This document shows, piece by piece, positions 30,510 to 47,501 of a stretch of 64,000 bases of DNA; positions within the stretch are counted from its first letter, which is position 1, and every line of letters begins with the position of its first letter. Origin of the DNA: Bifidobacterium breve (GTDB taxonomy: Bacteria; Actinomycetota; Actinomycetes; Nanopelagicales; Nanopelagicaceae); assembly GCA_945885625.1 (NCBI GenBank), contig CAMCYS010000003.1, positions 1-64,000 on the forward strand. The letters are read 5' to 3'. The position numbers and the translations under genes were made by a program. Below the pieces are notes generated by a model. That model was not told the origin of the DNA. It saw only the letters and a list, made by a program, of their open reading frames with translations, and searched no databases.

Positions 30510-30538
30510 TTGGGATGAAAAAAGCCAAGTGTTATAGT
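30510..30538 (+). promoter_or_regulatory. promoter of prpBCD, leaderless geometry
   Basis: TTGGGA (30510-30515), a 17-nt spacer, then TATAGT (30533-30538), 6 nt before the ATG at 30545. The placement implies that the mRNA starts at the initiation codon, which is the main argument for choosing 30545 over the earlier in-frame ATG at 30515 that lies inside the -35/-10 region. Confidence 0.65.
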
Positions 30539-30544
30539 TCCAGC

Positions 30545-31429: not shown

Positions 31430-32566
31430 GTGGTCGAATTCAAGCCTAAGAAATCAGTAGCCCTATCTGGCGTTCCAGCCGGTAACACAGCGCTTTGTTC
31501 AGTTGGTAAGAGTGGCAACGATTTACATTACCGTGGCTATGACATCTTAGATTTAGCAAAGTATTGCGAATTTGAAGAAGTTTCATATCTTCTGATTCAT
31601 GAGAAGCTGCCAAACTTGGCTGAGCTAACTGCTTACAAATCAAAGCTAAAGAAACTGCGTGGCTTACCTGATTCGCTAAAGCGGGTCCTTGAGCAAATTC
31701 CAGCTTCGGCACACCCAATGGATGTTGTGCGTACGGGTGTTTCGGCCCTTGGCACCATGGAACCAGAAGCCGATGCACATGAAATAACTGCGGCTCGCGA
31801 TTTAGCAGATCGTTTAGTTGCCTGTATTCCTTCGATTTTGGTCTACTGGTACCACTTCAGCCACAATGGCAAGAAGATTGAAGTAGAAACTGCCGATGAT
31901 TCAGTAGCAGCACACTTCTTACACATGTTGCACGGTGAAGTTCCTAATGCTCAGTGGGAAAAGTCGATGCAGATCTCACTAATTCTTTACGCCGAGCATG
32001 AGTTCAACGCCTCAACTTTTGCTGCCCGCGTTATCGCAGGCACGGGTTCAGATATGTTCTCGGCCATTACTGGTGCGATCGGCGCCCTTCGCGGACCAAA
32101 GCATGGTGGCGCTAATGAAGTTGCGCTAGAAATTCAAGAACGTTATTCAAATGTCGATGAAGCCGAAGCAGATATTCGTGCTCGCGTTGCAAATAAAGAG
32201 GTCGTCATCGGATTCGGTCACCCGGTCTACACAATCTCAGATCCACGTAACGTAGTTATTAAGACTGTCGCTGAAGAGTTATCACAAACTCAAGGTGATA
32301 TGACGCTTTATAACATTGCCGAACGTATTGAATCTGTCATGTGGGATGCCAAGAACATGTTCCCTAACCTTGATTGGTTCTCAGCTGTTTCATATAACAA
32401 GATGAATATTCCGACCTCTTTCTTCACACCGATTTTTATTATTGCCCGCACAACTGGGTGGGCAGCTCACGTTATTGAGCAACGTATTGATAACAAGATC
32501 ATTCGCCCAAGTGCTAACTACACTGGCCCCGAAGATCTAACTTTTGTACCACTCGCTGACCGATAA
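31430..32566 (+). CDS. prpC: 2-methylcitrate synthase
   Basis: 378-residue citrate synthase-fold enzyme with [12 protein letters not shown] and [13 protein letters not shown] (active-site histidines) and an Asp-containing C-terminal region. Its place between prpB and prpD indicates that it condenses propionyl-CoA with oxaloacetate; it may also take acetyl-CoA. GTG start directly after the prpB stop, with AAAGGAG about 11 nt upstream. Confidence 0.9.
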
Positions 32567-32589
32567 AAAATAACCGAAAAGGAAACCTA

Positions 32590-34044
32590 GTGTCATCACA
32601 TATCGCGCGCCCAGTCCAAGAATTCGATAAAGAGATTGTCGATATCGTTGATTACGCACTCAACTTTCAAGTAACTTCAGATGTTGCCTACGAAACTGCT
32701 TACAACTGCTTGCTCGACACCATCGGTTGCGGTCTTGAGGCTCTCGAATACGAAGCTTGCCGCAAATTGCTTGGCCCACTTGTAGCACAAGGCGAAATTG
32801 AAACAGGTGCTCGAGTTCCTGGTACTGCCTACAAATTAGATCCAGTGCAAGGTGCTTTTAATATTGGCGCCATGATTCGCTGGTTAGATTTTAATGACAC
32901 TTGGCTGGCTGCTGAATGGGGTCATCCATCAGATAACTTAGGCGCAATTTTGGCTACTGCTGACTGGATTTCACGTAATCCAGAATATGCAACCGGTAAA
33001 AAACTCGTCGTAAAAGACATTTTGACCGCAATGATTAAAGCCCACGAGATTCAAGGCTGTATTGCACTCGAAAACTCATTTAACAAGGTGGGTCTAGATC
33101 ACGTAATTTTAGTTAAAGTTGCCTCAACTGCAGTTGTTTCACAGATGCTCGGTTTAACTCGTGAACAGACTTTAAATGCAGTCTCACTTGCTTGGGTTGA
33201 TGGCCAAGCTCTTCGTACATACCGCCATTTCCCAAATGCAGGTTCCCGTAAATCTTGGGCTGCAGGCGATGCCACATCGCGGGCAGTTCGCCTTGCGCTA
33301 ATCGCAAAGACTGGCGAAATGGGTTATCCATCAGTATTAACTGCCAAGGTTTGGGGTTTCTATGACTCCCTATTTAAGGGTAATCACTTCAAGTTCCAAC
33401 GTCCTTACGGAACTTATGTCATGGAGAATGTGCTATTTAAGATTTCCTTCCCAGCCGAATTCCATAGCCAAACTGCAGTAGAGGCAGCTATGACTCTACA
33501 AGGACAGATGCTCGCAGCTGGAAAAACTTCAGATGACATTAAGTCGGTAACAATTCGCACTCACGAAGCTTGTATTCGTATTATTGATAAGAAAGGTCCT
33601 TTAAATAATCCAGCAGACCGCGATCACTGTATTCAATACATGGTCGCAGTTCCACTTATTTTTGGCCGCCTAACTGCCCGTGACTACGAAGAAGATATTG
33701 CAGCAGATCCCCGCATTGATGCTTTGCGCGAGAAAATTCTTTGCGTAGAAGATACTTCTTACACCGCTGACTACCATGATCCAGCTAAACGTTCGATTGC
33801 TAATGCGCTAACTATTGAATTCAATGATGGTAGCAAGCTTGCTGAAATTGCAGTTGAGTATCCAATCGGCCACGCACGTCGACGCACCGAAGGCATTCCG
33901 TTACTGATCGAAAAATTCCGTACCAACTTGGCGCGAATTTATTCTGCAGATCATCAGAAGCGAATTGAAGATGCCACCCTTGATCGCGCTAAGCTCGAGC
34001 AAATGTCGGTAACTGATTTCACTGATCTGCTCGCAAAGCCTTAA
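32590..34044 (+). CDS. prpD: 2-methylcitrate dehydratase
   Basis: 484 residues, MmgE/PrpD family. GHPSDNLGAILATADW, HEIQGCIALENSFN and the C-terminal EYPIGHARRRTEGIPLL are typical of PrpD. It dehydrates 2-methylcitrate to 2-methyl-cis-aconitate. The GTG start at 32590 has AAGGAAA 6-12 nt upstream. A second MmgE/PrpD gene at 56448 belongs to a different branch (458 residues, CoA-gene neighbourhood). No prpE is present, so propionyl-CoA must come from other reactions. Confidence 0.9.
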   Translation: MSSHIARPVQEFDKEIVDIVDYALNFQVTSDVAYETAYNCLLDTIGCGLEALEYEACRKLLGPLVAQGEIETGARVPGTAYKLDPVQGAFNIGAMIRWLDFNDTWLAAEWGHPSDNLGAILATADWISRNPEYATGKKLVVKDILTAMIKAHEIQGCIALENSFNKVGLDHVILVKVASTAVVSQMLGLTREQTLNAVSLAWVDGQALRTYRHFPNAGSRKSWAAGDATSRAVRLALIAKTGEMGYPSVLTAKVWGFYDSLFKGNHFKFQRPYGTYVMENVLFKISFPAEFHSQTAVEAAMTLQGQMLAAGKTSDDIKSVTIRTHEACIRIIDKKGPLNNPADRDHCIQYMVAVPLIFGRLTARDYEEDIAADPRIDALREKILCVEDTSYTADYHDPAKRSIANALTIEFNDGSKLAEIAVEYPIGHARRRTEGIPLLIEKFRTNLARIYSADHQKRIEDATLDRAKLEQMSVTDFTDLLAKP

Positions 34045-34143: not shown

Positions 34144-34215
34144 TGGGGTATGGGGTAATTGGCAGCCCTGCTGATTCTGGTTCAGTAAGTCTAGGTTCGA
34201 GTCCTGGTACCCCAG
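34144..34215 (+). tRNA. tRNA-Gln(CTG)
   Basis: 72-nt cloverleaf: acceptor TGGGGTA/TACCCCA, discriminator G, anticodon stem GCTGA/TCAGT and loop TTCTGGT with anticodon CTG (reads CAG). The T arm contains GGTTCGAGTCC. CCA is not encoded. It is paired with tRNA-Glu 35 nt downstream. Confidence 0.95.
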
Positions 34216-34250
34216 CGAACGTGATTCAAAGATTTAAAAATATGGACTAG

Positions 34251-34323
34251 GGCCCCGTCGTCTAGCGGCCTAGGACTCTGGCTTCTCAAGCCAGCTACGA
34301 GGGTTCGAATCCCTTCGGGGCTA
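34251..34323 (+). tRNA. tRNA-Glu(CTC)
   Basis: 73-nt cloverleaf: acceptor GGCCCCG/CGGGGCT with a terminal G-U pair, anticodon stem CTGGC/GCCAG and loop TTCTCAA with anticodon CTC (reads GAG). The T arm contains GGTTCGAATCC. CCA is not encoded. This is the usual partner of tRNA-Gln downstream of gltX in actinobacteria. Confidence 0.95.
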
Positions 34324-34328
34324 CAAAA

Positions 34329-34383: not shown

Positions 34384-35244
34384 TTAATCGATTGTAATTA
34401 CTGTTTCTGATGAGAACGCTAAATTCTTAGCATTACCCGCATTGCTACCACTAACTACACATTCACCTGAACGGACAGCGATAACACGCTTTCCGATAAC
34501 GTAACATGTTGGAGTTGAACTAGTTGACCAGTTGATCTTTATTCCTGCGTAAGATTTAGCTGGCAGAGTTAGATACTTACCACGTTTTAGTGAAGTTTCT
34601 AGTTCTCCAATTTGCTGAGTCGCTGGTCCAAATACGGTGGCAGGAGCATCAGTGATATCAAATGTAACCAAGTCGGTATCAGCTTCTTTATCACCCTTGC
34701 CTGGAATGACTGGCTTCATTGTTCCATAAAGTCGTGCTGGCTTAATTTCATCACGATTTTGAATTGGTGAAGATGGTGCTATTTCAAGACCCGTTGTATC
34801 AGTATTTGTAAGTTCAAAAGTCACCTGTCCTGTGGCATCTGTTTTACCTACAAGTTCAAGCCCGAAGTTAGCACCATCTTGCGCAGTAACTTTAGTGCCG
34901 TCAGCAGTTACCCAGTTGGCCTTTGAACCACTGTATGGCGCATTTACTTGCAGGCGCACTTCTTGAGCAGCTGCAGGTGTAGTTCCATCAGTTGTAACGA
35001 TGTAGGTAAGTGAAAGCTTTGTGCCATGGCCAATGTAGGTGTAGAACGCCTTAGTATCAGCGGAGTAGTACTGTGCAATATCGCCTGTGGCATCGACGCT
35101 ATTAGTCGCGTCATAACTTGGGCTGATCAAGCGAACTGATGGCAATCCAGCAGCAGTACTTGATGGCATCGCCACAACGCCGGCGGCAATAACTAGGGCA
35201 AGCGAAACTAAAGCTCGTCCTGTCTTGAGTGTTCGGTTATTCAT
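34384..35244 (-). CDS. secreted protein with one copy of the locus-specific beta-rich module
   Basis: 286 residues from the ATG at 35244, chosen because AAAGGAG lies 5 nt upstream and a signal peptide (residues 1-32, ending STAAG) follows immediately. Residues 37-198 form a module starting VRLISPSYDATNS, with LSLTYIVT, VRLQVNAPYSGSKANW and DATGQVTFELTNTD; two further copies are in the protein at 39697. Residues 200-286 are a second, Ig-like or Big-like domain with a Cys pair. No known enzyme motif is visible. It is co-transcribed behind a secreted GH16 enzyme, so glucan binding at the cell surface is a reasonable guess. Confidence 0.75.
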   Translation of the reverse strand: MNNRTLKTGRALVSLALVIAAGVVAMPSSTAAGLPSVRLISPSYDATNSVDATGDIAQYYSADTKAFYTYIGHGTKLSLTYIVTTDGTTPAAAQEVRLQVNAPYSGSKANWVTADGTKVTAQDGANFGLELVGKTDATGQVTFELTNTDTTGLEIAPSSPIQNRDEIKPARLYGTMKPVIPGKGDKEADTDLVTFDITDAPATVFGPATQQIGELETSLKRGKYLTLPAKSYAGIKINWSTSSTPTCYVIGKRVIAVRSGECVVSGSNAGNAKNLAFSSETVITID

Positions 35245-35296
35245 TTTTTCTCCTTTTACTGGACGATTCCCCTGAAAATGAAGCATTTCCCTGGGT

Positions 35297-36214
35297 TTAT
35301 TTCTTAGTTACCTTGCCGACTCCATCAACCGAGTAATAGCGGATGTAATCAACAAATGTTTGAGTTTTATCTATAGCTGGATCAATAGCACCACCAAATT
35401 CGCCACCCATTGCTAAGTTAAGAATTAGGTAAAATTTTTGATTGAAAACCCATCGACCCGGTTTCACTGAGGCAGGAGTTTCACTAGTAATTAAGCGATC
35501 GTTAAAATAGAAATCAATTTTATTCTTTTTCCATTCAATTGCATATATATGGTAGTTATCACTTACCGGTGTTGGGCTCTGATATGACCCGCCAACTCCA
35601 GGGCCCTTTCCGTATCCGGGACCATGCAGAACTGCTGAAACTAAAGATGGTTCAACTCCGCGAGTTTCAACAATATCAATTTCGCCACATTCGGGCCAAG
35701 GATTACCATCTAGAAAATCAGCACCGAGCATCCAAAAAGCCGGCCAAGTTCCTTCGCCAGGGGCTACTTTAATGCGAGCTTCTAGGCGACCGTATTGAAA
35801 CTGTACTTTTCTCGAAGACTTTATTTTGGCACTTGTAAATTGGCATTCCCAACAGGAATTCAGTATCCGTGTCGTAGCGCTTGAATTATCTATTTGGTTA
35901 CCTAGAGCATCGGAAATTCGATTTGCCGAGATTACTAACTTGCCTTCGCCGTCGGTTGAAATGTTGGCAGGTTTGTTTGTGTAGTACTGAAGCTCGGCGT
36001 TACCCCACCCGTAGCCATTACCTATGTCGTAATCCCAATTCTTTGACGATGGCAATGAACCTTTCTTACCGTTGAATTCATCAGCCCAGAGTAGTTTGAG
36101 AACTTTAGGCCCAGCGGCTTGCGAAATAGTCACCGGCGTAATGGCAATAATTGAAGTCGCCAATAATGAGGCTGACACTAGGGCCAATACCCGCACTTTG
36201 GATTTCCGGTTCAT
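35297..36214 (-). CDS. secreted GH16 beta-glucanase (laminarinase-like)
   Basis: 305 residues with a signal peptide (1-34). The GH16 domain begins LLWADEFNG. The catalytic ExDxxE motif is E178/D180/E183 in CGEIDIVET, preceded by GTWPAFWMLG and followed by FYLILNLAMGGEFGG and a VDYIRYYSVDG end. These features match the laminarinase branch of GH16 (endo-beta-1,3-glucanase), acting outside the cell. GAAGAGGAAG lies about 10 nt before the ATG. First gene of a minus-strand pair, divergent from the ABC-transporter operon across an operator-bearing intergenic region. Confidence 0.92.
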   Translation of the reverse strand: MNRKSKVRVLALVSASLLATSIIAITPVTISQAAGPKVLKLLWADEFNGKKGSLPSSKNWDYDIGNGYGWGNAELQYYTNKPANISTDGEGKLVISANRISDALGNQIDNSSATTRILNSCWECQFTSAKIKSSRKVQFQYGRLEARIKVAPGEGTWPAFWMLGADFLDGNPWPECGEIDIVETRGVEPSLVSAVLHGPGYGKGPGVGGSYQSPTPVSDNYHIYAIEWKKNKIDFYFNDRLITSETPASVKPGRWVFNQKFYLILNLAMGGEFGGAIDPAIDKTQTFVDYIRYYSVDGVGKVTKK

Positions 36215-36272
36215 GCCGCTACTTCCTCTTCCCTGCCTACTCGGTCACGCTTTGATAACGAATTAGAACTCC

Positions 36273-36313
36273 GCGCAATAGGTGTTGCGCTACTAGCAAT
36301 TACGCACTTAGAT
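36273..36313 (+). promoter_or_regulatory. GCGCAA palindrome and likely promoter of the glucan transporter operon
   Basis: A perfect inverted repeat GCGCAA(N6)TTGCGC at 36273-36290. Its right arm TTGCGC (36285-36290) can serve as -35, with TTAGAT (36308-36313) 17 nt later as -10. Transcription would start near 36320, directly before the LacI-type operator at 36323. The region is shared with the divergent GH16 gene, and the 215-nt gap holds no gene. Confidence 0.5.
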
Positions 36314-36322
36314 ACAGTAGTG

Positions 36323-36336
36323 TGAAACCGCTTTCA
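36323..36336. promoter_or_regulatory. LacI-family operator TGAAACCGCTTTCA
   Basis: A 14-bp near-palindrome with the central CG step typical of LacI/GalR sites (compare TGAAAGCGCTTTCA). It lies just downstream of the likely -10, between two divergent glucan-use transcripts. A copy with one mismatch occurs at 43456, in the other divergent intergenic region of the locus. The LacI gene at 44920 is the obvious candidate regulator. Confidence 0.75.
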
Positions 36337-36429
36337 TAGTGCATAAGAGCCTACCTCTCGGACAGGCAAATTGGTACTACGAAACGATAACTTTTTTAAT
36401 TGGCGCTGTTAATTATCAAGGAGTTGGCT

Positions 36430-37773
36430 ATGCGTAAGAAGACCATATTTAGAGGCTCGATTGCGGTTTCAACCGCAGCTATTTTGGCAGCGGGCGTTTT
36501 AGGAACCCCAGCTCGAGCGGCAGATCCAGTAACTATTACCATCTGGACTTTTGGCGATGTAATTCAGCGCCAACTCGTTCAGGAGTATAAGAACCTGCAC
36601 CCAGAAATTACTCTGCAAATTAAGAAATCAGATTTAGACCCACTAAATGGTACAAATATGGTTACCGCATGTACCTCCAAAACTGGCCCAGATGTTGTGG
36701 CAGTCGAAGTTCAATACTCTGGATACTGGCGCTCATATCCAAAGTGCTTTACCGATTTGCGCAAAATGAAAACATCAGAGGCAAATGTTGTGGCAGGAAT
36801 CCCTGCCGGCAAGACTGCGCTGGACTTTAAGAAAAATTACTTACCATGGCGCTGGGAACAAGGCGTCGGTTATGACGATAGCGTTATTGGGTTCCCTACA
36901 GATGTCGGCGGTCTTGAAGTTGCCTACCGAGTTGATTTATTTAAGAAAGCTGGACTTCCTACCGATCGTGACAAAGTTGGAAAATTATGGCCAACTTGGG
37001 AGAAGTTCATCGCTACTGGCGTTAAGTACAATGCAAAGCGAAGCGCTGCAGATAAAAAAGCAGGTAAAGGATTTATTGATAATGCTGGCACAATTTATGC
37101 CGCGATTATGAATCAAGGTACTGAAAAGTATTATAAGAATGATGGCACTGATGCGGGTAAGTTGATTTATGACACAAATCCTCAGGTTAAAAAAGCATGG
37201 GATACGACAATTAAAGCAACTGAATTAGGCATCGGAACCCGAATTGGTCAGTACACATCTGACTGGAATATCGGAATGAACAAGGGAACTTTCGCAACTA
37301 TTTTGGCTCCAGCCTGGATGATGGATTACATCAAGCAGCAAGCGCCAGACACCTCGGGTAAATGGGATATTGCTGCCCTTCCTGGTGGTGGTGGTAACCA
37401 AGGTGGAACTCAGCTAACAGTTCCTTCTTATGCCAAAAATCCCCAAGAGGCATATGACTTCATTACCTGGTATCTAGCGCCAGAACAACAGTTGAAGGTA
37501 TTTAAGACCTACGGTCTCTTCCCAGCAGCTTCAGTTCTGTACAACGATGCCGCTTTACTGGACTACAAAGATCCATTCTTTAACAATGCCCCAGTTGGGA
37601 AGATCTACTCTGAAGGCGTTTCAAAGGTAAAGCCTATCTTTGAGGGCAAACTACAACGAGCAATTGATCAAGCTATTGGTGCTGGCCTCGGGAGAGTAGC
37701 GGCAAAGAAAATGACTCCAGCTAAGTCATGGGCTCAAGTGCTTGTAGATATCAAAAAAGTTATTAGTAACTAG
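36430..37773 (+). CDS. sugar ABC transporter substrate-binding protein
   Basis: 447 residues from the ATG at 36430, which has AAGGAG 6 nt upstream; the in-frame TTG at 36400 is not needed. It is a family 1 binding protein: signal peptide ending ARAADP, then VTITIWTFGDVIQRQLVQEY and a C-terminal LAPEQQLKVFKTYGLFPA region. It should capture an oligosaccharide, here probably laminari-oligosaccharides by context. The signal peptide has an AxA cleavage site rather than a lipobox with cysteine, unusual for a monoderm binding protein. Two permeases follow. Confidence 0.9.
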   Translation: MRKKTIFRGSIAVSTAAILAAGVLGTPARAADPVTITIWTFGDVIQRQLVQEYKNLHPEITLQIKKSDLDPLNGTNMVTACTSKTGPDVVAVEVQYSGYWRSYPKCFTDLRKMKTSEANVVAGIPAGKTALDFKKNYLPWRWEQGVGYDDSVIGFPTDVGGLEVAYRVDLFKKAGLPTDRDKVGKLWPTWEKFIATGVKYNAKRSAADKKAGKGFIDNAGTIYAAIMNQGTEKYYKNDGTDAGKLIYDTNPQVKKAWDTTIKATELGIGTRIGQYTSDWNIGMNKGTFATILAPAWMMDYIKQQAPDTSGKWDIAALPGGGGNQGGTQLTVPSYAKNPQEAYDFITWYLAPEQQLKVFKTYGLFPAASVLYNDAALLDYKDPFFNNAPVGKIYSEGVSKVKPIFEGKLQRAIDQAIGAGLGRVAAKKMTPAKSWAQVLVDIKKVISN

Positions 37774-37801
37774 ATTCCTATAACTAGGTGTTAAACAACT
37801 T

Positions 37802-38791
37802 ATGAGCCATTCAAAGGAAAGAGAGGGGCGTCGCAAGGCGCCTCTCTCACCTTGGAAATCAACTACCCCAAAAAAGGCTACTAAAACAAATAAACCGATT
37901 GAGGGCGTTGCTTCGCTAGATCACCGTTTCGGTATTCCATTTATTGCGCCTTTCTTTCTTATTTTTCTGATTTTCGGTCTGGCTCCAGTTATCTACTCAA
38001 TTTATATCTCTTTTTATAAATGGGATCCCCTTGGTGGATCAACTTTTAACGGGGTGCAGAATTTCGTAACTCTCTGGGGCGACTCTGATTTTTGGCTAGC
38101 AATGCGTAACACTTTTAGTATTTGGGCGCTCTCTACCTTTCCACAGATGGCGATGGCAATCGGGCTAGCTGTAATTCTTAGAAGCAAGCGGTTACGTGGC
38201 GCATCTTTTTGGCGGACAATTTTCTTAGTTCCAAACATCACTTCGGTAATCGCAATCACAATTGTTTTCGGACAGTTATTTGGCCGAGATTTTGGAATCA
38301 TCAATGGAATTCTGGGGCTTTTTGGTGTTGATAATATTGACTTTATTGAAGGTGTAATACCGAGTCACATTCAGATTGCGGTGATGATCACCTGGCGTTG
38401 GATTGGCTACAACACATTGATTTTCCTGGCTGCTATGCTGGCAATTCCAGACGAGCTTTATGAATCTGCCTCTGTTGACGGGGCTACCAAGTGGCAGCAA
38501 TTCATTTATGTAACTCTTCCGCAATTGAAAAATACCATCACATTTGTGCTAGTTGTAGGCACGATTGGTGGCCTGCAAGTATTTGCTGAGCCGCAACAAT
38601 TGGCAGCAGATGGCGGATCAAGCAAGCAGTTCTTGACTTTAACGCTATTTCTTTACAACCAAGCATTTGTAAATAATAAATATGGTTATGCCGCAGCTAT
38701 CGGTATTGCAATTACCGTAATTGTGTTGATTATTTCGGTAATAAATTTCTTAATAACTCGCCGCATCTCTAATGACGGGGGTGGGCGCTAA
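37802..38791 (+). CDS. sugar ABC transporter permease (MalF type)
   Basis: 329 residues. A basic cytoplasmic tail (about 1-45; KERE, KKATKTNK) is followed by about six transmembrane helices and the EAA loop ELYESASVDGATKWQQFIYV near residue 220, which contacts the ATPase. By family it forms half of the membrane channel. It overlaps the second permease by one base (TAATG). It is slightly longer at the N-terminus than most MalF-type permeases. Confidence 0.92.
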   Translation: MSHSKEREGRRKAPLSPWKSTTPKKATKTNKPIEGVASLDHRFGIPFIAPFFLIFLIFGLAPVIYSIYISFYKWDPLGGSTFNGVQNFVTLWGDSDFWLAMRNTFSIWALSTFPQMAMAIGLAVILRSKRLRGASFWRTIFLVPNITSVIAITIVFGQLFGRDFGIINGILGLFGVDNIDFIEGVIPSHIQIAVMITWRWIGYNTLIFLAAMLAIPDELYESASVDGATKWQQFIYVTLPQLKNTITFVLVVGTIGGLQVFAEPQQLAADGGSSKQFLTLTLFLYNQAFVNNKYGYAAAIGIAITVIVLIISVINFLITRRISNDGGGR

Positions 38792-39633
38792 TGGAAAAGA
38801 TTCCAAAATGGCAGCGCACCTCGCCATTTAGTTATGTAGCCCTTGCTTTAATTACTTTCCTCTCTATTTTCCCGTTTTATTGGATGTTTGTAGTTTCCTC
38901 AAACACGAATGCGGAAATCTCTAAGAGTCCACCTTCGCTAATTCCAGGCGGCAGATTCCTAATCGTTGCCGAGAAAGTACTTAATGCTGAAGGTGTTTAC
39001 TTCAACACCGCCTTGATGAACACATTTATTGTTGGTGTCTCAATTGCCGTTGCGCAAGTAATTTTCTCAGCCTTTGCTGGTTTTGCATTTGCGAAACTGA
39101 ACTTTAAAGGCCGTAAATTCTTTATTCTCTTCATCGTCGGAACGATGATGCTACCTAGTCAGTTGGGTATCATTCCGTTATTTATTCTGGTCAAGAATTT
39201 GCGCATGATTGACACGCTCTACGCGCTGATCGTCCCGGCGCTAGTAACTGCCTTCGGCGTATTCTGGATGCGTCAAATAATTGATGCTCAAGTACCAAAT
39301 GAGCTCCTTGAAGCAGCGAGCATTGATGGGGCCAGCGTTCCACGAATCTTCTTTGGGATAGTCCTTCCAATCATTCGTCAAAGTTCATTCGTACTTGGCT
39401 TATTTGCCTTCTTGGCTGCTTGGAATGACTACTTGTGGCCAACAATTGTGCTGCAGAATCCCCAAAATTTCACGCTGCAAGTTGCTCTGACTCAACTTAA
39501 GCCGATGTATGGACTCGATTACGCATTACAAATGGGTGGAGCCTTCTTGGCAACAGCTCCACTACTTATTCTCTTCGTCTTTGTCGGCCGCAAGTTGGTC
39601 AGCGGAGTCATGGATGGAGCAGTCAAAGGTTGA
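38791..39633 (+). CDS. sugar ABC transporter permease (MalG type)
   Basis: 280 residues, about six transmembrane helices, EAA loop ELLEAASIDGASVPRIFFGI near residue 170. It pairs with the upstream permease. No ATP-binding gene follows; in actinobacteria one shared ATPase (MsiK type) often serves several sugar importers. A small stem (TTTCTC/GAGAAA) at about 39638-39657 lies between this gene and the next. Confidence 0.93.
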   Translation: MEKIPKWQRTSPFSYVALALITFLSIFPFYWMFVVSSNTNAEISKSPPSLIPGGRFLIVAEKVLNAEGVYFNTALMNTFIVGVSIAVAQVIFSAFAGFAFAKLNFKGRKFFILFIVGTMMLPSQLGIIPLFILVKNLRMIDTLYALIVPALVTAFGVFWMRQIIDAQVPNELLEAASIDGASVPRIFFGIVLPIIRQSSFVLGLFAFLAAWNDYLWPTIVLQNPQNFTLQVALTQLKPMYGLDYALQMGGAFLATAPLLILFVFVGRKLVSGVMDGAVKG

Positions 39634-39696
39634 GAATTTTTCTCGGGAAAAGAGAAAAGTAAGCACAATACAAAAGCAAAAGGAAGAGGAAGATAA

Positions 39697-41154
39697 ATGA
39701 GTATCAAGGCAAAGAAAGTACTAGCTGGTTTTGCTGCCGCTGTAACTGTGCTTGCTTTATCAAGCGCTGTATCAGCTCCGGCTATGGCCGCAGGAGATCC
39801 ACCGAAGGATGCAGTAATCAAATTAATTAGCCCAATTCTTACTGCAGAGAACACAAGTGAAGCTGCGGCGAACCAGAAGATGGCCGATGGCTGGGTTGCT
39901 AATGGTTGGTTTGGAACCGGCTTGGTTTACCAGCGTGCATTCGTGCCAACTGGATCAACAATTACATTGGTTTATCACGTAACTGATAAGGATGGAAAAA
40001 TCCTAGTTGGTCAAGATGTGACACTTCGTGTCAATAAGGGTTACTCAAACTCTTCAGCAATTGTTCAAGTTGATGACAAGATTACAACTGGTGTTCACAA
40101 GCCAGAATCAGCTGATCAGGCACGTGTTACTCACAAGACAGATGCCTACGGAAACGTAACATTTGTTATGAAGAACCTCGATAAGCCAGGAACAGGTGAA
40201 CCAGAACCTGAATCAATGACTGCTAAGCCAGACATTAGTGCTGACGGACTAAACGATCTTCACGCACAGGTATTGCCTGAGATCGCGGGCGAAATACCAG
40301 ATCACTCAGTCATAACTGAATTTCATTATTACGACCCAAAGACACCAGCAGCTGCTCAACCGGTAACTAAGCCAACAATTCGCTTAGTTTCACCAATTTT
40401 AAATGATGCTAACTCAATTCAGCGTGCTGATCTAGAAAAGACCTTCAGCGTTGATAACCCTTGGTACGCCAAGGGAATTGGTTTCCGTCAAGCTTATGTT
40501 CCAACCGGATCTGCTATCAATCTGGTTTACAAAGTTACTGATGACAATGGAAAGCCACTTCCAAATACAACAGTCAAGCTTCATGTTAATAAGGCCTACA
40601 GCGCTTCCAAGGCTGGCATGACTGATGGCACCAACTCTACAGATCCTACAAAAGATAGTGCGCAGGATAATGATCAATTGCTGCTTACAGGCACCACTGA
40701 TGGATTTGGATTTGTTCTCTTCGCTTTGAAGAACACTGACAAAAAAGGTGAGCCAATTCCGGCTACATTAACTACCCCTACTCCGACGACCAATGGGGTC
40801 TTTAGTCAGATCTACCCAGAGATTTCTGGTCAGGCAACGGATATCGCAGACATGGTGGAGTTCCACTTTGTTGGCGATGAAGCTGTTCCTGTAGCACCGC
40901 CATCGAAAGCAATTTCGGTAAAAGCAACTGCCTCAAAGGCAACCGTGAAAGGCAAAGCCGTTTATTCAATGACAATTGCCATCGCGAATGCATCAGGAAA
41001 AACCGCAACAATTTCAATCACTGGAAATAAGAAAGTAACTGAGAAGATCTCAGTTGCAAATCAGGCTTTCAAGTACACCGTTACAGCAGGAAAGAAAACT
41101 GTGACCGTTGTAATTGCGGGCAAGACCTATAAGTCAACAGTTACCGTTAAATAG
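39697..41154 (+). CDS. secreted protein with two copies of the locus-specific beta-rich module
   Basis: 485 residues. Signal peptide 1-32 (ending AMAAG). Module 1 at about 40-211 (IKLISPILTAENTS, ITLVYHVTDKDGK, LRVNKGYSNSSA, KTDAYGNVTFVMKN) and module 2 at about 227-391 (IRLVSPILNDANSI, INLVYKVTDDNGK, LHVNKAYSASKA, TTDGFGFVLFALKN). Residues 404-485 are a Lys/Val/Thr-rich domain with no recognised fold. The modules look like beta-sandwich Ig-like domains and recur in the protein at 34384. GAGGAAG lies 5-11 nt before the ATG. It sits in the transporter operon ahead of a secreted GH16, so glucan binding or surface display is plausible but unproven. Confidence 0.8.
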   Translation: MSIKAKKVLAGFAAAVTVLALSSAVSAPAMAAGDPPKDAVIKLISPILTAENTSEAAANQKMADGWVANGWFGTGLVYQRAFVPTGSTITLVYHVTDKDGKILVGQDVTLRVNKGYSNSSAIVQVDDKITTGVHKPESADQARVTHKTDAYGNVTFVMKNLDKPGTGEPEPESMTAKPDISADGLNDLHAQVLPEIAGEIPDHSVITEFHYYDPKTPAAAQPVTKPTIRLVSPILNDANSIQRADLEKTFSVDNPWYAKGIGFRQAYVPTGSAINLVYKVTDDNGKPLPNTTVKLHVNKAYSASKAGMTDGTNSTDPTKDSAQDNDQLLLTGTTDGFGFVLFALKNTDKKGEPIPATLTTPTPTTNGVFSQIYPEISGQATDIADMVEFHFVGDEAVPVAPPSKAISVKATASKATVKGKAVYSMTIAIANASGKTATISITGNKKVTEKISVANQAFKYTVTAGKKTVTVVIAGKTYKSTVTVK

Positions 41155-41162
41155 AAACAAAT

Positions 41163-41198
41163 GCCGGCGAGGCCCTAGAAAGCCTCGCCGGCCTTTTC
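41163..41198 (+). terminator. rho-independent terminator between operon genes
   Basis: An 11-bp GC-rich stem GCCGGCGAGGC/GCCTCGCCGGC with the loop CCTAGAAA, followed by CTTTTCT. It lies 9 nt after the stop of the modular secreted protein and 20 nt before the next GH16 start. It should end or sharply reduce transcription, so the downstream GH16 depends on read-through or its own promoter. Confidence 0.85.
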
Positions 41199-41218
41199 TA
41201 GATTGAGGAATTAGGTAT

Positions 41219-42601
41219 ATGTATCGCAAAGTTCTAGCAGTGATTGCCGCACTAGTCTTAAGTGTCTCATCATTTTCAGTAATTGCGGCACACGGTGAAG
41301 AGGCAAATAAGCCGCTAACTTTGCCAAAAATTACCGCTGGGTCAACTGGATATACCTTCAAGGCCACGCCAGCTAAGTGGGCAGATAACGGCCCGAGCTC
41401 ATTTCAATGGCTTTTAAACGGTAAAGCTTTACCAACTTCAGGTCTAACTTTGAAGCTAAAAAGTATTGATAAGAAGAAAAAACTGCAGTTTAGCGAGGCA
41501 CATATTTTTGATGACGGAACAACAGTCACTGCGAGATCAAACATAATTACGATCGGCAATGTACTTCTATCCGAGTCTTTAACTATTCGTGTGCGACCAA
41601 GTGATGACAAAGTCATGGAAATTGCCATGCTTCCACAGAGTATTCCTACAAATGCTAAGCCGTCATACCAATGGTATGTAGGATATTTTGAGATTAGAGG
41701 TGCGACTAAGAGCACTTACAATTTAAAAACCTCAGATTTAGGCACCGATATTTCGCTAGAAGTTAAGTTTTCGGCTAAAGGCTTTGTCACGGCAAAGCAG
41801 ACTTCTAATACCGTTGCCGTAGCAAATATAACTCGTAAATATGAACAGATTTGGTCGGAAGAATTCAATGGACCTGCTGGCGCACCTGCAGACCCAACTG
41901 TATGGATTGCCCAAAATGGCGATGGCGTCGCATTTGGCAATCGGGGCTGGGGAAATAATGAAAGACAATGGTATGACGATAAGGTTTCTTCTACTAATGG
42001 TTCGGGTTCTTATGTAATTAGAGCAACAACCGAGGGTGCGGGCGCAAATAACTGCTACTACAAAGGACCATGCGAGTGGTTGAGCACGAAATTAGTCACA
42101 AAAGACAAGGTTGGATTTAAGTACGGTCGTATCGAAGCTCGAATAAAGGGTCCAGTTGGTAAAGGAACTTGGGGCGCCTTCTGGATGTTAGGTGCAGATA
42201 TCGATGAACGTGGCTGGCCCGGTTGTGGTGAAATTGATGTAACCGAGTTACTCGGAAATCTTCCATCCACAAATCTCGGGTACATTCATGGCCCTGCCGG
42301 CAGTCGTGGTGAAAGAGTAGAAATGAAAACTCCACATGCATCGGAGTACCACACCTATGCTGTTGATTGGCTGCCTGACCAAATTCGATATTACTTAGAT
42401 GGTGTTCCCTTTTTAACGCTTGATAGGCGTGATCCAGGCTGGGTTTATGACCATGAGTTCTACATCATTATTAACTTAGCTATGGGTGGAAATCTAGGCG
42501 GAGAAATTGAAGCGAATCTGAAAGATTCCACAATGGAATTTGATTACATTCGGGTTTATTCAATCAATGGCATAGGCGAAGTAATTAAGCACAATGCATA
42601 A
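41219..42601 (+). CDS. secreted GH16 beta-glucanase with N-terminal Ig-like repeats
   Basis: 460 residues. Signal peptide (1-26), then two Ig-like repeats of about 85 residues (FQWLLNGKALPTSG; SYQWYVGYFEIRGATKSTYN) of a kind common in actinobacterial surface proteins. The GH16 domain runs from about 207 to 456 (EQIWSEEFNG; catalytic E338/D340/E343 in CGEIDVTE; FYIIINLAMGGNLGG). It should cleave beta-1,3-glucan outside the cell, with the repeats as spacer or binding domains. GAGG lies 10 nt before the ATG. A strong terminator precedes it. Confidence 0.9.
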   Translation: MYRKVLAVIAALVLSVSSFSVIAAHGEEANKPLTLPKITAGSTGYTFKATPAKWADNGPSSFQWLLNGKALPTSGLTLKLKSIDKKKKLQFSEAHIFDDGTTVTARSNIITIGNVLLSESLTIRVRPSDDKVMEIAMLPQSIPTNAKPSYQWYVGYFEIRGATKSTYNLKTSDLGTDISLEVKFSAKGFVTAKQTSNTVAVANITRKYEQIWSEEFNGPAGAPADPTVWIAQNGDGVAFGNRGWGNNERQWYDDKVSSTNGSGSYVIRATTEGAGANNCYYKGPCEWLSTKLVTKDKVGFKYGRIEARIKGPVGKGTWGAFWMLGADIDERGWPGCGEIDVTELLGNLPSTNLGYIHGPAGSRGERVEMKTPHASEYHTYAVDWLPDQIRYYLDGVPFLTLDRRDPGWVYDHEFYIIINLAMGGNLGGEIEANLKDSTMEFDYIRVYSINGIGEVIKHNA

Positions 42602-42618
42602 TTAACAAAGCATAAATA

Positions 42619-43422
42619 CTAGTACTTTACTGTTTTAACTTCGCCAATACCATCAATCATGAAGTGTTTGATATTAGCAATTTCAAGGTTACTTGTCTGC
42701 AGATCAGGATCTACTTCCCCTACGAACCAGCCACCAATTGCTTGATTTATAATTAGGTAGAAATAGCCATTAAACGGCCACTCTTTACCTGCAAAATCAC
42801 CTTGACCGCGAGTGAACTTTTGAAACGAATGATCGTTAAAGAACCATTCAATTGAGTCCTCCCGCCAATCAATTGCGAATCGGTTAAAGCTCTCTGATAA
42901 GTCAGTCAAACTTTCATGGAAACCAGTTATTCCAGATTCTCCTGCGTAACCCGTTGCGTGCAGCGTTCCTTGAATTGTTCTTGGCTTGGCTCCGTTTCCC
43001 TCAAAGAGATCGATCTCACCACATGCTGGCCAAGCAGTACCTTCAGAAATACTTTTGCCTAGCAGCCAGAGAGCAGGCCAAGTTCCCACACCTTTTGGCA
43101 TTTTGGCTGAAATTTCAAGGTATCCATATTTAAAAAAGACCTTGCCGTTGGTATGAATCTTTCCGCTCGTCCATTCAGCAGGACCGTAATAAGTTTCAAT
43201 GTGCGAAACACCTTCTTCGCGAGCTGCTGTAATTGTCAATCCGTTGTCTGCATTCAAAGAATTGGTTGTGTAAAACTCACGTTCATGATTTCCCCACCCA
43301 ACCAAGCCATGTTGTGAGCCATCACCTAAGTCAGGTGTCCAGAATTCGGGATTTGGCTGTCCGTCACAAGTTGGCAGAAATTCTTCGCACCAGAGCAATG
43401 TTTTCGCATCTGAACTTAACAT
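42619..43422 (-). CDS. GH16 beta-glucanase without signal peptide (predicted cytoplasmic)
   Basis: 267 residues from the second in-frame ATG at 43422, which has GGAGG 5 nt upstream; the first ATG at 43434 would overlap that sequence. It starts MLSSDAKTLLWCEEFLP, directly in the GH16 fold with no signal peptide. The catalytic motif is E136/D138/E141 in CGEIDLFE, with FYLIINQAIGGWFVG later. A cytoplasmic GH16 next to a GH1 gene suggests intracellular trimming of imported laminari-oligosaccharides. It is divergent from GH1 across the second LacI-type operator. Confidence 0.87.
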   Translation of the reverse strand: MLSSDAKTLLWCEEFLPTCDGQPNPEFWTPDLGDGSQHGLVGWGNHEREFYTTNSLNADNGLTITAAREEGVSHIETYYGPAEWTSGKIHTNGKVFFKYGYLEISAKMPKGVGTWPALWLLGKSISEGTAWPACGEIDLFEGNGAKPRTIQGTLHATGYAGESGITGFHESLTDLSESFNRFAIDWREDSIEWFFNDHSFQKFTRGQGDFAGKEWPFNGYFYLIINQAIGGWFVGEVDPDLQTSNLEIANIKHFMIDGIGEVKTVKY

Positions 43423-43455
43423 TCTGGCCTCCATATAGGATAGGGTTCGAGAGTA

Positions 43456-43478
43456 TGTAACCGCTTTCAGAGGCGGTT
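43456..43478. promoter_or_regulatory. second LacI-type operator, within a larger palindrome
   Basis: TGTAACCGCTTTCA at 43456-43469 differs at one position from the site at 36323. The AACCGC arm is also repeated inverted as GCGGTT at 43473-43478, making a second palindrome with an 8-base loop. It lies between the divergent cytoplasmic GH16 and GH1 genes. Confidence 0.7.
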
Positions 43479-43537
43479 TATAGGGCTCTTGTATGAAAGT
43501 ATAAGGGTAGAAATTGCCGAAATGGAGTTCAAGGTTT

Positions 43538-44923
43538 ATGTCTCACGCTTTTCCAGATGACTTCCTTTGGGGCACAGCAACTGCCAGTTACCAAATCGAA
43601 GGCGCTGCACAAAAAGATGGTCGTGGCGTGAGCATATGGGACACCTTTAGTAAAACTCCTGGCAAAGTTGTAGGTAGCGATAACGGTGATGTTGCGTGCG
43701 ATCACTACCATCGTTATCCAGAAGATATTGAAATTATGAAAGATTTAGGCGTTAAGGCATATCGTTTTTCAATTGCTTGGCCAAGACTTTTCCCAAATGG
43801 CGATGGAGTTCGTGAAGAGCGCGGTTTCAATTTTTACAATAACTTAATTGACTCGCTCATTGAAGCTGGTATTGAACCTATGGTGACTTTGTACCACTGG
43901 GATCTTCCGCAGCAACTAGAAGATGCAGGCGGTTGGGCAAACAGAGCAACAGCTAAAGCATTTGCAGATTACGCACTTGCGTGTGCTGATGAATTTGGTG
44001 ATCGAGTGAATAACTGGATTACTTTGAATGAGCCTTGGTGTGTAGCGTGGTTGGGTTATTCAATTGGAGTTCATGCACCTGGTAAAAAAGATCACGCGCT
44101 GGCAATTGCAGCCTCTCATCACACAGCTCTTGCTCACTCAATGGCAACTCAAGCAATAAAGAGCATTCGCCCAAATGCTCAAGTTGGCTTAACCGTGAAC
44201 ATGACAAATCACCATTTGGAAAATCCCGAGAATCCTGAACTAGTAACTCTTAATGCGCTTCTTGATTCAAATATAAATCGTTGGTGGATTGAAGCAATGC
44301 TTTATGGCAAGTATCCAACAAATATTCTTGAGTACTACGGTAAAGCGCTGACCGATGTACTTCTTCCTGGTGATCAAGAATTACTTAAGGTAAAGCCTGA
44401 TTTCCTTGGTATTAATTATTATTCTGATTCATTCTTGCGTAATCCTCGCCCCGAAGATTTGTTAGATAACGGACCAGGAATCTTCCCATTCCCGCAAAAA
44501 GGCGATAATTCGCCACCCGCACACTTGGCGGAGTCCCTCACAGCCATGGGTTGGGTTGTTACGCCTGAAGGTCTCGGCAATTTAGTAGCGCGAGTTCATC
44601 GTGACTACCCTGAGATTCCTTATCTAATGATTACCGAGAATGGCTCCTCATATGAAGATTTGGTTGAGGCCGACGAAAGCATTAACGATGTTGAAAGAAC
44701 TTCTTATCTAGTACGACACCTACAGTCTCTTCAGAAAGCGATCGCTTCCGGCGTGCCAGTAAAGGGCTACTTCGCTTGGTCACTACTGGACAATTTTGAA
44801 TGGGCTGAAGGTTATGCGAAGCGATTTGGCTTAGTTCGAGTTGACTATAAAACCTTGGCGAGAACTCCCAAGTTGAGCGCTAAAAAGTATAAAGAAATTA
44901 TTGCATCCAATAGCCCTAGCTAG
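43538..44923 (+). CDS. GH1 beta-glucosidase
   Basis: 461 residues from ATG 43538; the in-frame TTG at 43514 precedes the family's usual start. DFLWGTATASYQIEGA opens the fold, the acid/base is about E165 in LNEPW and the nucleophile about E367 in ITENGSS; WSLLDNFEW is near the C-terminus. No signal peptide, so it is cytoplasmic. It should release glucose from beta-linked oligosaccharides, completing the pathway of this locus. Its stop overlaps the convergent LacI stop by 4 nt. Confidence 0.94.
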   Translation: MSHAFPDDFLWGTATASYQIEGAAQKDGRGVSIWDTFSKTPGKVVGSDNGDVACDHYHRYPEDIEIMKDLGVKAYRFSIAWPRLFPNGDGVREERGFNFYNNLIDSLIEAGIEPMVTLYHWDLPQQLEDAGGWANRATAKAFADYALACADEFGDRVNNWITLNEPWCVAWLGYSIGVHAPGKKDHALAIAASHHTALAHSMATQAIKSIRPNAQVGLTVNMTNHHLENPENPELVTLNALLDSNINRWWIEAMLYGKYPTNILEYYGKALTDVLLPGDQELLKVKPDFLGINYYSDSFLRNPRPEDLLDNGPGIFPFPQKGDNSPPAHLAESLTAMGWVVTPEGLGNLVARVHRDYPEIPYLMITENGSSYEDLVEADESINDVERTSYLVRHLQSLQKAIASGVPVKGYFAWSLLDNFEWAEGYAKRFGLVRVDYKTLARTPKLSAKKYKEIIASNSPS

Positions 44924-45954
44924 CTCTTGGCGGTTGACTCTCTAGCTACCAGTTTTACCGGCAACATTTTCTTGGTGACTTCAGATCCTCCAAGCGCTGC
45001 CACCAACATATTTGCTACCTCGGCACCTAGTTCACGAGTTGGCTGATGGATACTTGAGAGCGCAGGTACTGAACGCGTAGCAACTGGTGAATTATCAAAA
45101 CCAATGACTTTTACTTGTTTAGGAACTGATATTTTATTTTGCAACAGTACATTTATGGCGCCTAGAGCGCTCAAGTCGTTTCCAGCAAAGATTCCATCAA
45201 ATGCAATCTTCTTCTTTAGAAACTCGCGAACAACTTCCTCGGCTTTAGAAGATGAATAATCACCAGTCAAAATTGAAGTTGGCGAGATTTCTCGACCAGC
45301 CTCTGAGATAGCTTTTTCAAAACCTTCAAATCGATCTCGCCCTGACTGCAGTTTTAAATCTCCAGTAATCACAACTATTTTCTTACAGCCCTGCGAAATC
45401 AAATGTTTTGTGGCTAAATAGCCACCTTGCACGTTATCAACGTCGACGTAAGGGAATTTTTCTGAACCACCCAAATCTCCACCAAAAACCACTGGGACAC
45501 CTTTAGGAAGTAAGCGCTCAAAACTCTTTACCGAACGGTGCCAGCTAAACATGGCGATTCCATCAACTTGAGCTTTTCGGAGTGATTCAAAGAGAGAGTC
45601 TTCGCTACCGGTTTTCGGGCGAATCAGAAGCAGAGGTTGCATACCCGCATCAGAAATTGCGGTGGTAAATCCCTGAACCACCAAACCCCAGAATGGATTC
45701 AGGAAGAATTCTTCACTGGATTCCTCAAGTACCAGGGCAACAAGTCCGCTGCGCCCGCCAGCAAGTCTGCGAGCCGTGGTGTTTGGCACGAAGTTATATT
45801 TCTTGATTGCCCTGCGAACTGCCTTTTCAGTTTCTGGTGAAACTTTTGCGCTGCCATTTATAACCCGGGAAACGGTGGCACGACTAACGCCGGCAGTTTC
45901 AGCGACTAAATCAATAGTAACCTCAACGCTTCGGGAAGTGCTTTTGGCGGTCAC
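44920..45954 (-). CDS. LacI family transcriptional regulator
   Basis: 344 residues. The N-terminal helix-turn-helix with hinge helix (TIDLVAETAGVSRATVSRVING, FVPNTTARRLAGG) is followed by a periplasmic-binding-like ligand domain (VPVVFGGDLGG, GIFAGNDLSALGA, KVIGFDNSPVA). It probably represses the glucan genes through the palindromes at 36323 and 43456, released by a sugar (inference). Start GTG at 45954, with TAGAAT at 45961-45966 six nt upstream, so the mRNA is probably leaderless. No copy of the operator is visible at its own promoter. Confidence 0.92.
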   Translation of the reverse strand: MTAKSTSRSVEVTIDLVAETAGVSRATVSRVINGSAKVSPETEKAVRRAIKKYNFVPNTTARRLAGGRSGLVALVLEESSEEFFLNPFWGLVVQGFTTAISDAGMQPLLLIRPKTGSEDSLFESLRKAQVDGIAMFSWHRSVKSFERLLPKGVPVVFGGDLGGSEKFPYVDVDNVQGGYLATKHLISQGCKKIVVITGDLKLQSGRDRFEGFEKAISEAGREISPTSILTGDYSSSKAEEVVREFLKKKIAFDGIFAGNDLSALGAINVLLQNKISVPKQVKVIGFDNSPVATRSVPALSSIHQPTRELGAEVANMLVAALGGSEVTKKMLPVKLVARESTAKS

Positions 45955-46787: not shown

Positions 46788-47501
46788 ATGCAAAAGTCTA
46801 AGTACGTTTTGGTGATTGCTGCGCTTCTTGCTTTTGGGTTAGCACCAGCACAAGGCGCGCTTAAAGTTGCAAGAATTTATGATGGTGACACCGTAACTAT
46901 GGCCGATGGTATGAAGATTCGCCTTCTACAAATTGATGCCCCAGAACTTGCTGAAGGCGAATGCTTTGCTAAAGAATCTAAAGCTGCTCTAGTTAATATC
47001 TTGGCGAAAAAAGGAACTCTTGCCTTAAAGGCAGATCCGGCTTCGGCTTCGTTTGATCGTTATGGCCGAGCGCTTCGATACATTTTTGTGGGAAAAGTAA
47101 ATGTAAATCTTGAGATGGTGAAAATTGGCGCAGCAGCCCCATATTTCTATCAAGGCGAAAAAGGGATTTACTCAAAAGCGATGTTAAAGGCCGCTCAAGA
47201 TGCCAAGTTATACAAAGTAGGTTTATGGAAAGCTTGCCCTGGTACGCAATTGGTTCCAACTAAAGCAATAACAACTTATAAAGCCGTTGGAACTCCGGTT
47301 GCTACGCCACTTAACACTCCTGCTGCCGTACCAAGTGCTGCAACAGGATGTGATCCGAACTACGCCGGCTGTATTCCGCTTTATCCACCTGACTTGAATT
47401 GCAGCGATATAAAGGCACTTGGCTTAGCACCAGTTACAGTAATTGGTAAAGATCCGCACAGATTAGATGGCGACGGCGATGGTAAAGCCTGCACTAGCTA
47501 G
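46788..47501 (+). CDS. secreted thermonuclease-like nuclease with C-terminal Excalibur-like calcium motif
   Basis: 237 residues: signal peptide 1-23, SNase domain about 24-150 with IYDGDTVTM, IRLLQIDAPE and FDRYGRALRYIF (the Arg/Asp/Glu active-site region), a Thr/Pro/Ala linker, then a Cys-rich end with LDGDGDGKACTS, the DxDxDGxxC pattern of Excalibur domains. It should cut extracellular DNA or RNA for nutrients. It lies 5 nt after the preceding membrane-protein gene. Confidence 0.88.
   Translation: MQKSKYVLVIAALLAFGLAPAQGALKVARIYDGDTVTMADGMKIRLLQIDAPELAEGECFAKESKAALVNILAKKGTLALKADPASASFDRYGRALRYIFVGKVNVNLEMVKIGAAAPYFYQGEKGIYSKAMLKAAQDAKLYKVGLWKACPGTQLVPTKAITTYKAVGTPVATPLNTPAAVPSAATGCDPNYAGCIPLYPPDLNCSDIKALGLAPVTVIGKDPHRLDGDGDGKACTS

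Follow-up and report, generated by a model that had tools for sequence, protein, structure and literature searches.

Bacterial loci for the use of beta-glucans have been described in several lineages, and the statements made on them below refer to the available portion of each source. The mixed-linkage polysaccharide utilization locus (PUL) of Blautia producta combines a glycoside hydrolase family 16 subfamily 3 (GH16_3) endo-glucanase with an ATP-binding cassette (ABC) importer, a regulator, and intracellular glucan-cleaving enzymes (PMC10318527). The cebR-cebEFG-bglC system of Streptomyces joins a regulator of the LacI-family type and two 14-bp sites to a binding protein, two permeases, and a beta-glucosidase, and its cello-oligosaccharide importer, Ceb, is powered by the remote, shared ATPase MsiK (PMC4890002). 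In the BglR operon of Thermotoga maritima, a laminarinase, a beta-glucosidase, and an ABC importer are co-regulated (PMC3750489). The components named for these three systems recur together in a ten-gene locus at positions 34384 to 45954 of a 64,000-nucleotide stretch of DNA (the window; positions 1 to 64,000 of contig CAMCYS010000003.1, assembly GCA_945885625.1, deposited as Bifidobacterium breve and placed by GTDB in the Nanopelagicaceae), which is analyzed here. In this locus, the remote ATPase is a prediction and the co-regulation is seen as a shared operator only. The celC-glyR3-licA operon of Clostridium thermocellum also has a LacI-family regulator, and its release by laminaribiose at the celC site serves as the model for the inducer proposed here (PMC5483248).

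A proposed regulated locus for beta-1,3-glucan use

The locus is proposed to serve the regulated use of beta-1,3-glucan of the algal laminarin or chrysolaminarin type, possibly along with mixed-linkage glucan, a reading to which we assign a probability of roughly 0.8. Confidence is high that this is a beta-glucan catabolic locus under a LacI-family regulator. Its main food is likely beta-1,3-glucan rather than mixed-linkage glucan, and we infer laminarin as the substrate. A sequence-only reading of the window had proposed a Gram-positive, ABC-based beta-glucan utilization locus under LacI control, which is supported by the protein families, the solved relatives, and the conservation of the operator.

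All ten open reading frames (ORFs) were confirmed, and Pfam and NCBIfam assignments bear out the gene content that had been read from the letters: three GH16 proteins (B, G, and H), a GH1 protein (I), the binding protein (C) and two permeases (D and E) of an importer, two modular secreted proteins with BIg21 domains (A and F), and a LacI-family regulator (J). Gene starts of A, C, and I were corrected by reading of the sequence, and signal peptides were called by visual inspection and a simple hydrophobicity rule.

GH16 and GH1 enzymes

The three GH16 proteins score 69 to 77 bits in Pfam (cut-off, 22) and are encoded by the only GH16 genes found in their assembly (1,442,484 bases, rated 90.75% complete). 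B (35297 to 36214, minus strand) is a secreted, likely endo-beta-1,3-glucanase whose nearest solved relatives, 3atg, 9voq, 9vmv, and 2hyk (197 to 207 bits), are named as glucanases or beta-1,3-glucanases. G (41219 to 42601, plus strand) is also secreted and likely a beta-1,3-glucanase, being closest to 2hyk, 2vy0, and 5wut (155 to 156 bits; beta-1,3-glucanase, endo-beta-1,3-glucanase, and ULam111); about 200 of its N-terminal residues match no Pfam family. H (42619 to 43434, minus strand) has no signal peptide and is predicted to be cytoplasmic. Its nearest solved relatives, both at 187 bits, are the laminarinase 3azx, presumably that of Thermotoga, and the family 16 protein 4dfs. Lichenase-type and carrageenase structures fall far below the top matches of these enzymes.

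GH16_3 is the laminarinase subfamily, containing beta-1,3-glucanases as well as enzymes with additional activity on mixed-linkage glucan, and the active-site motifs EXDXXE and EXDXE mark an early split among the GH16 subfamilies (PMC6827312). The EXDXXE form is present in all three proteins (EIDIVE in B, EIDVTE in G, and EIDLFE in H) and in 12 of 12 aligned GH16 proteins chosen from four loci. In the WPA...WXX...WPX pattern given by the same source, B and H read WPA..W(M/L)L..WP, and in G the WPA element is WGA. The GH1 protein I (43514 to 44923, plus strand; likely start, ATG at 43538) lacks a signal peptide, scores 530.9 bits in Pfam and 567.9 bits against the beta-glucosidase model TIGR03356 (cut-off, 478.5), and has beta-glucosidases as its best solved relatives. 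NEP and TENG are the GH1 catalytic motifs, and the translation holds ITLNEPW and ITENGSS. Alignment and translation confirm the GH16 motifs and GH1 residues that had been read directly from the sequence.

A GH16 tree was built from 126 rows with the catalytic motif and sufficient length; since rows without the motif were dropped before counting, the tree is no test of EXDXXE itself. The H rows form one group with a Shimodaira-Hasegawa-like approximate likelihood ratio (SH-aLRT) support of 90, or 98 together with six neighbors labeled B or G. B and G, unlike H, do not resolve cleanly into one group each (9 and 10 changes, respectively). By the hydrophobicity rule, none of the 18 H rows, the window's among them, has a hydrophobic N-terminal stretch, nor has any of the six neighbors, compared with 59 of 70 B rows and 30 of 36 G rows. 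This pattern points to a conserved GH16 lineage that lacks a signal peptide and may reside in the cytoplasm. A cytoplasmic endo-glucanase would be sensible if fairly long oligosaccharides are imported. In five loci, extra GH16 genes lie near the core set (L065:788, L069:37, L070:5505, L083:6667, and L114:5342), in a separate 13-row tree group outside B, G, and H.

A conserved operator for the LacI-family regulator

J (44920 to 45954, minus strand) belongs to the LacI family in both Pfam and NCBIfam. Its nearest solved relative is 5ysz, which we take to be Thermobifida CelR, at 222.5 bits, with the next match at 139.3 bits. The helix SxATVSRVxN is kept in 34 of 35 LacI proteins of the related loci, down to 34% identity with J; in the remaining one, V is replaced by I. 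This count leaves out a row lacking its N terminus and three extra LacI genes at 27 to 30% identity.

Two candidate operators lie in divergent intergenic regions, TGAAACCGCTTTCA between B and C (36323 to 36336) and TGTAACCGCTTTCA between H and I (43456 to 43469). In the 1.44-Mb assembly, TGWAACCGCTTTCA has exact matches at these two sites only, and its two one-mismatch copies are both inside reading frames. The resulting four matches within one mismatch compare with 6 for the backward control, so the two sites are marked by position and conservation only. Within the window, five matches were found at two mismatches against 1.2 expected, and 2 of 100 shuffles scored as high. Because this window-only signal is weak, the proof of the operator is its conservation in relatives.

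For this purpose, intergenic gaps of the window, 65 related loci, and four further contigs were compared with first-order Markov resamples as the null. The palindrome NGAAANCGNTTTCN occurs in 61 of 61 B/C gaps, window included (47 with the strict form TGAAANCGNTTTCA), where about 0.06 are expected. It also occurs in 19 of 20 H/I gaps (17 in the strict form; 0 expected), the sole miss being the window's own gap, by one base, and in all four other gaps between GH16, GH1, or importer genes. It is absent from the other divergent gaps (0 of 7), and no operator was found in the gaps upstream of lacI (0 of 5). Two sites per B/C gap are present in many loci, for the most part those of the Microbacteriaceae type; they are spaced 30 to 34 bases apart, with a few at 24 or at 66 to 67. 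Within the genus (61 genomes, the window's own among them), 11 of the 12 genomes that have GH16 contain exact TGAAACCGCTTTCA on either strand, and none of the 49 GH16-lacking genomes does. The operator is therefore real, and the matching sites that the sequence-only reading had pointed out in both divergent regions hold up across relatives. Repression by J through these sites is part of the scheme proposed below. In two relatives (G044:C27:8103 and G041:C101:7877), the exact operator occurs a third time, on the locus contig beyond B, which suggests further regulated genes.

An importer with an unanchored binding protein

The binding protein and both permeases of a CUT1-type importer stand together at the locus. 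C (36400 to 37773, plus strand; likely start, ATG at 36430) is an SBP_bac_8 protein, and D (37802 to 38791) and E (38791 to 39633), both on the plus strand, are BPD_transp_1 permeases. None of the ten locus proteins matches a Pfam family of the SusC/SusD type, the pair that characterizes laminarin PULs of Bacteroidota. The profile of C is closest to 5ixp (224.7 bits) and to the putative cellobiose-binding protein 8bfy (220.6 bits), and the next match falls to 59.8 bits.

C has a signal peptide without a lipobox. By simple pattern and hydrophobicity rules, a lipobox is found in 0 of the 53 orthologous N termini examined; 13 of 66 were skipped as cut by contig ends or without a landmark motif. 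Lipoboxes flagged earlier in three binding-protein loci proved to be upstream of the likely start and disappear in this stricter count. An unanchored binding protein is odd for a Gram-positive cell. Of the six family-1 binding proteins in this genome, five lack a lipobox by eye (C, at 36430 to 36530 of the window, L134, L137, L138, and L139), although lgt is present.

No ATPase gene was found within the locus. The genome has 41 ABC ATPase matches, six of which were read and the most MsiK-like of these, by eye, was scored: this unlinked gene on G000:C1 (L140:464-1543) reaches 458 bits against the UgpC model NF008653 (cut-off, 432). By analogy with Ceb, an ATPase of the UgpC/MsiK type encoded elsewhere probably drives the importer. 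The locus had been called complete; the description fits only if the unlinked UgpC/MsiK-type gene serves this importer.

BIg21 proteins

A (34384 to 35286, minus strand; likely start, ATG at 35244) is a small secreted protein with a BIg21 (Ig-like) match and no catalytic domain, and F (39697 to 41154, plus strand), likewise secreted, is large: it carries two BIg21 modules and ends in an Ig-like domain. Against the Pfam cut-off of 27.4 bits for BIg21 (PF05688), F scores above at 35 bits and A below at 22 bits. With a profile of the BIg21 module, A reaches 167.9 bits, a value to be read with the presence of A's own row in that profile. AlphaFold models F with a predicted local distance difference test score (pLDDT) of 81.3, and the first BIg21 module alone with 89.7, consistent with fairly confident Ig-like modules.

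Among 100 genomes, the BIg21 module is present in 12, and these coincide precisely with the 12 of 61 genus members (own genome included) that carry GH16. As genes of the same locus, BIg21 and GH16 are not independent in this co-occurrence; fusions of the two form a separate line of evidence. Five ORFs from five genomes are BIg21-GH16 fusions, among 88 module ORFs and 155 GH16 ORFs in 81 partly redundant loci. These data tie the BIg21 module to GH16, and the BIg21 proteins are candidate glucan binders. In homologs of A and in the F homolog of L047, a short two-cysteine tail resembling TTITCVKGKxTKKVTAVxPKCPxGYKKK replaces the C-terminal domain of the window type (L035:5137, L036:325, L039:4084, L041:5294, L043:4907, L045:756, and L047:5639); it is perhaps a surface-retention signal.

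Proposed function and alternative explanations

In the proposed scheme, J would occupy the two operators when substrate is absent and keep the divergent promoters low. The secreted enzymes B and G would cut the polysaccharide outside the cell, and A and F may keep glucan or enzymes close to it. C, D, and E, together with a remote shared ATPase, would bring in oligosaccharides; inside, H would shorten the long ones, and I would free glucose. A short gluco-oligosaccharide, imported or released, would then lift the regulator off the DNA.

A bolder extension, possible but doubtful at present, is a semi-selfish, sparing mode of glucan uptake in freshwater planktonic actinobacteria, with BIg21 as a new class of beta-glucan-binding domain. 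Here, BIg21 would tether beta-1,3-glucan and the secreted GH16 enzymes at the cell, long oligosaccharides would enter through an importer whose binding protein is free of a lipid anchor, and the conserved cytoplasmic GH16 lineage would complete endo-cleavage. With tethering outside and endo-cleavage inside, little sugar would be lost to neighbors.

The strongest alternative, which we consider unlikely overall, is that the real target is a mixed-linkage (1,3/1,4) or cello-type beta-glucan and that the locus is a retargeted Ceb cello-oligosaccharide system. It draws on several points. C is near the cellobiose-binding protein 8bfy, and J is nearest to 5ysz, again on our assumption that this is CelR; both relationships count in favor of the main reading as well. 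The best NCBIfam model for all three GH16 proteins is that of the endo-1,3-1,4-beta-glycanase EglC, at 81 to 87 bits and far below its cut-off of 700. GH16_3 includes enzymes active on mixed-linkage glucan and its members may cut both glucans (PMC6827312), and the Blautia locus serves barley glucan, its GH16_3 enzyme preferring barley glucan and lichenan though laminarin is also cut (PMC10318527). Set against this alternative are the presence of three GH16_3-like enzymes, with no match to a cellulase family among the locus proteins, and the CebR box TGGGAGCGCTCCCA, which has no copy within one mismatch in the genome and a single one within two, on another contig. The named relatives, moreover, come from plankton-type samples, as metagenome-assembled genomes and one single cell (lakes appear in some of the titles), and in plankton, algal beta-1,3-glucan would be the likelier food.

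Further observations weigh against the beta-1,3-glucan reading or against parts of it. No GH3 was found in the genome (GH30, GH17, and GH149 were outside this search), which leaves the beta-1,6 branches of laminarin without an obvious debranching enzyme. The form TGAAANCGNTTTCA, looser than the exact operator, also occurs in 8 of the 49 genus genomes without GH16. In the outgroup, 18 of 39 genomes have GH16 without the BIg21 module, and fold searches with the BIg21 model returned general Ig-like matches only, naming no function. In the available text of PMC3335022, laminarin-labeled freshwater single cells were mostly Verrucomicrobia, and acI was among the groups dominating a general stain.

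It is very improbable that the GH16 proteins remodel the cell's own wall or exopolysaccharide, with the transporter recycling the fragments. Some GH16 proteins do have roles in the organism's own wall elsewhere, and weak SKN1/KRE6 matches occur, all below cut-off. The locus is instead accessory, present in 11 of 60 congeners, and forms one block with an importer, a glucosidase, and a LacI-family regulator, as is typical of catabolic cassettes. Agarases, carrageenases, or other non-glucanase types can be set aside almost entirely, given that the kappa-carrageenase model yields 19.8 bits for B and 19.4 for G against a cut-off of 350 and carrageenase structures match these two at only 22 to 32 bits (none listed for H), whereas the best solved relatives are glucanases and laminarinases at about 155 to 207 bits and the partner enzyme is a beta-glucosidase. 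None of the agarase, carrageenase, or xyloglucan types that had been named as contrary outcomes turned up.

If the beta-1,3-glucan reading is true, some species of the genus would be direct consumers of an algal storage sugar, and presence or absence of the cassette could help explain niche differences among close species. The locus also yields one testable operator, a GH16 group without a signal peptide, and a candidate glucan-binding module.

Distribution and genomic context

Of 60 congeners sampled, 11 have GH16, as do 4 of the 21 among them that are listed at 90% completeness or more; as many congener genomes are partial, the figure of 11 is a lower bound. The cassette is thus accessory within the genus. 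In the scan of named genomes, two peptide patterns retrieved 65 loci (one genome contributes both L090 and L121, and several loci duplicate other sampled genomes) from Candidatus Planktophila, Candidatus Nanopelagicales, actinobacterium SCGC AAA044-N04, Rhodoluna, Aurantimicrobium, Microbacteriaceae, and Micrococcales. Judged by the closest of the named relatives, the organism of the window belongs to the Nanopelagicaceae (acI). Such a locus had been thought unusual for a streamlined freshwater actinobacterium. It is indeed a minority trait among congeners, but related loci occur in both Nanopelagicaceae and planktonic Microbacteriaceae, so this judgment was only half right.

Gene order is conserved wherever contigs are long enough. 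Of the 65 related loci, all 60 that extend more than 700 bases upstream have a GH16 gene divergent to C (the other 5 are shorter there); permease D is present in 57 of 58 and permease E in 51 of 51, and GH1 and LacI in all 15 long loci; H is absent from most loci of the Microbacteriaceae type. The ten genes had been taken as one functional unit. They are kept together in relatives, but by strand they make up at least five transcription units and not a single operon. A strong terminator-like hairpin, an inverted repeat, lies between F and G (41163 to 41192). A sigma-70 scan returned 8 promoter-like sites against a shuffle mean of 21 and was not used.

On the left, the cassette is bordered by tRNA-Gln and tRNA-Glu genes, called by ARAGORN (34144 to 34324, plus strand). 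The same two tRNAs come after gltX in all eight relatives that were examined, and the genes beyond them differ among several sets, some common (L150/L154; L151/L152/L156) and some not. The stretch after gltX-tRNA-Gln-tRNA-Glu is thus a variable site. Site-specific integration at tRNA-Glu was considered, but the final 12 to 18 tRNA bases are not repeated elsewhere in the window, and we therefore propose no att site. In the window, G033, L059, and L089, the cassette is flanked by prpD and the k46300/SNase genes; in G026, gltX and k46300/SNase form the two flanks.

The window also carries a methylcitrate-pathway-like block (30515 to 34044; phosphoenolpyruvate mutase family, citrate synthase, and MmgE/PrpD) that separates gltX from the tRNAs. 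The block stands beside the cassette in G033, L059, and L089 as well and not in G026; it may be an accessory block in its own right, the second at this site. On the other side, 46788 to 47501 encodes a staphylococcal-nuclease-like protein with a sub-threshold Excalibur match. This gene was found in 3 of 37 genus genomes searched (own, G026, and G033), each time with the cassette beside it.

Comparison with known systems

The capacity for beta-1,3-glucan cleavage is already known in another planktonic actinobacterial group. Beta-1,3-glucanase genes occur in 58% of Rhodoluna and 29% of freshwater Aquiluna among the Luna-1 plankton (PMC12422013), as counts by Enzyme Commission (EC) number; a locus, an operator, BIg21, a signal-peptide-less GH16, and Nanopelagicaceae are not described in the available part of that source. 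The acI genomes are reported to have alpha- and beta-glucosidases (PMC5301498, PMC5574706), and the accessible text of PMC5574706 makes no mention of laminarin, GH16, or glucan. Our literature search found no description of the present locus, nor of an intracellular or cytoplasmic GH16 or laminarinase, most subscription journals lying outside its coverage.

The closest systems differ from the locus in distinct ways. Compared with the Blautia PUL, it has a regulator of the LacI rather than the AraC type, a GH1 enzyme and no GH94 phosphorylase, three GH16 proteins, one of them without a signal peptide, a binding protein without a lipobox, and an unlinked ATPase. It also has separate BIg21 proteins in place of CBM4 domains; in Gram-positive PULs, a carbohydrate-binding module (CBM) often substitutes for surface glycan-binding proteins (PMC10318527). 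Relative to Streptomyces Ceb, the operator is TGAAANCGNTTTCA instead of TGGGAGCGCTCCCA, and three GH16 glucanases and the BIg21 proteins are added. The Thermotoga BglR operon, to which the likeness extends to H with its laminarinase relative 3azx, is under a ROK-family regulator, and neither signal-peptide-less GH16 nor BIg21 proteins are mentioned in the available text (PMC3750489). The celC-glyR3-licA operon has no ABC importer among its named genes and is autoregulated, in contrast to the empty gaps upstream of lacI here.

Gram-positive GH16_3 PULs, a LacI-family regulator released by laminaribiose, and Luna-1 glucanase genes having all been described, the kind of locus is known, and its architecture is a new variation within the literature searched. 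What appears to be new is the conserved operator, the GH16 lineage without a signal peptide, the tie to BIg21, and the unanchored binding protein.

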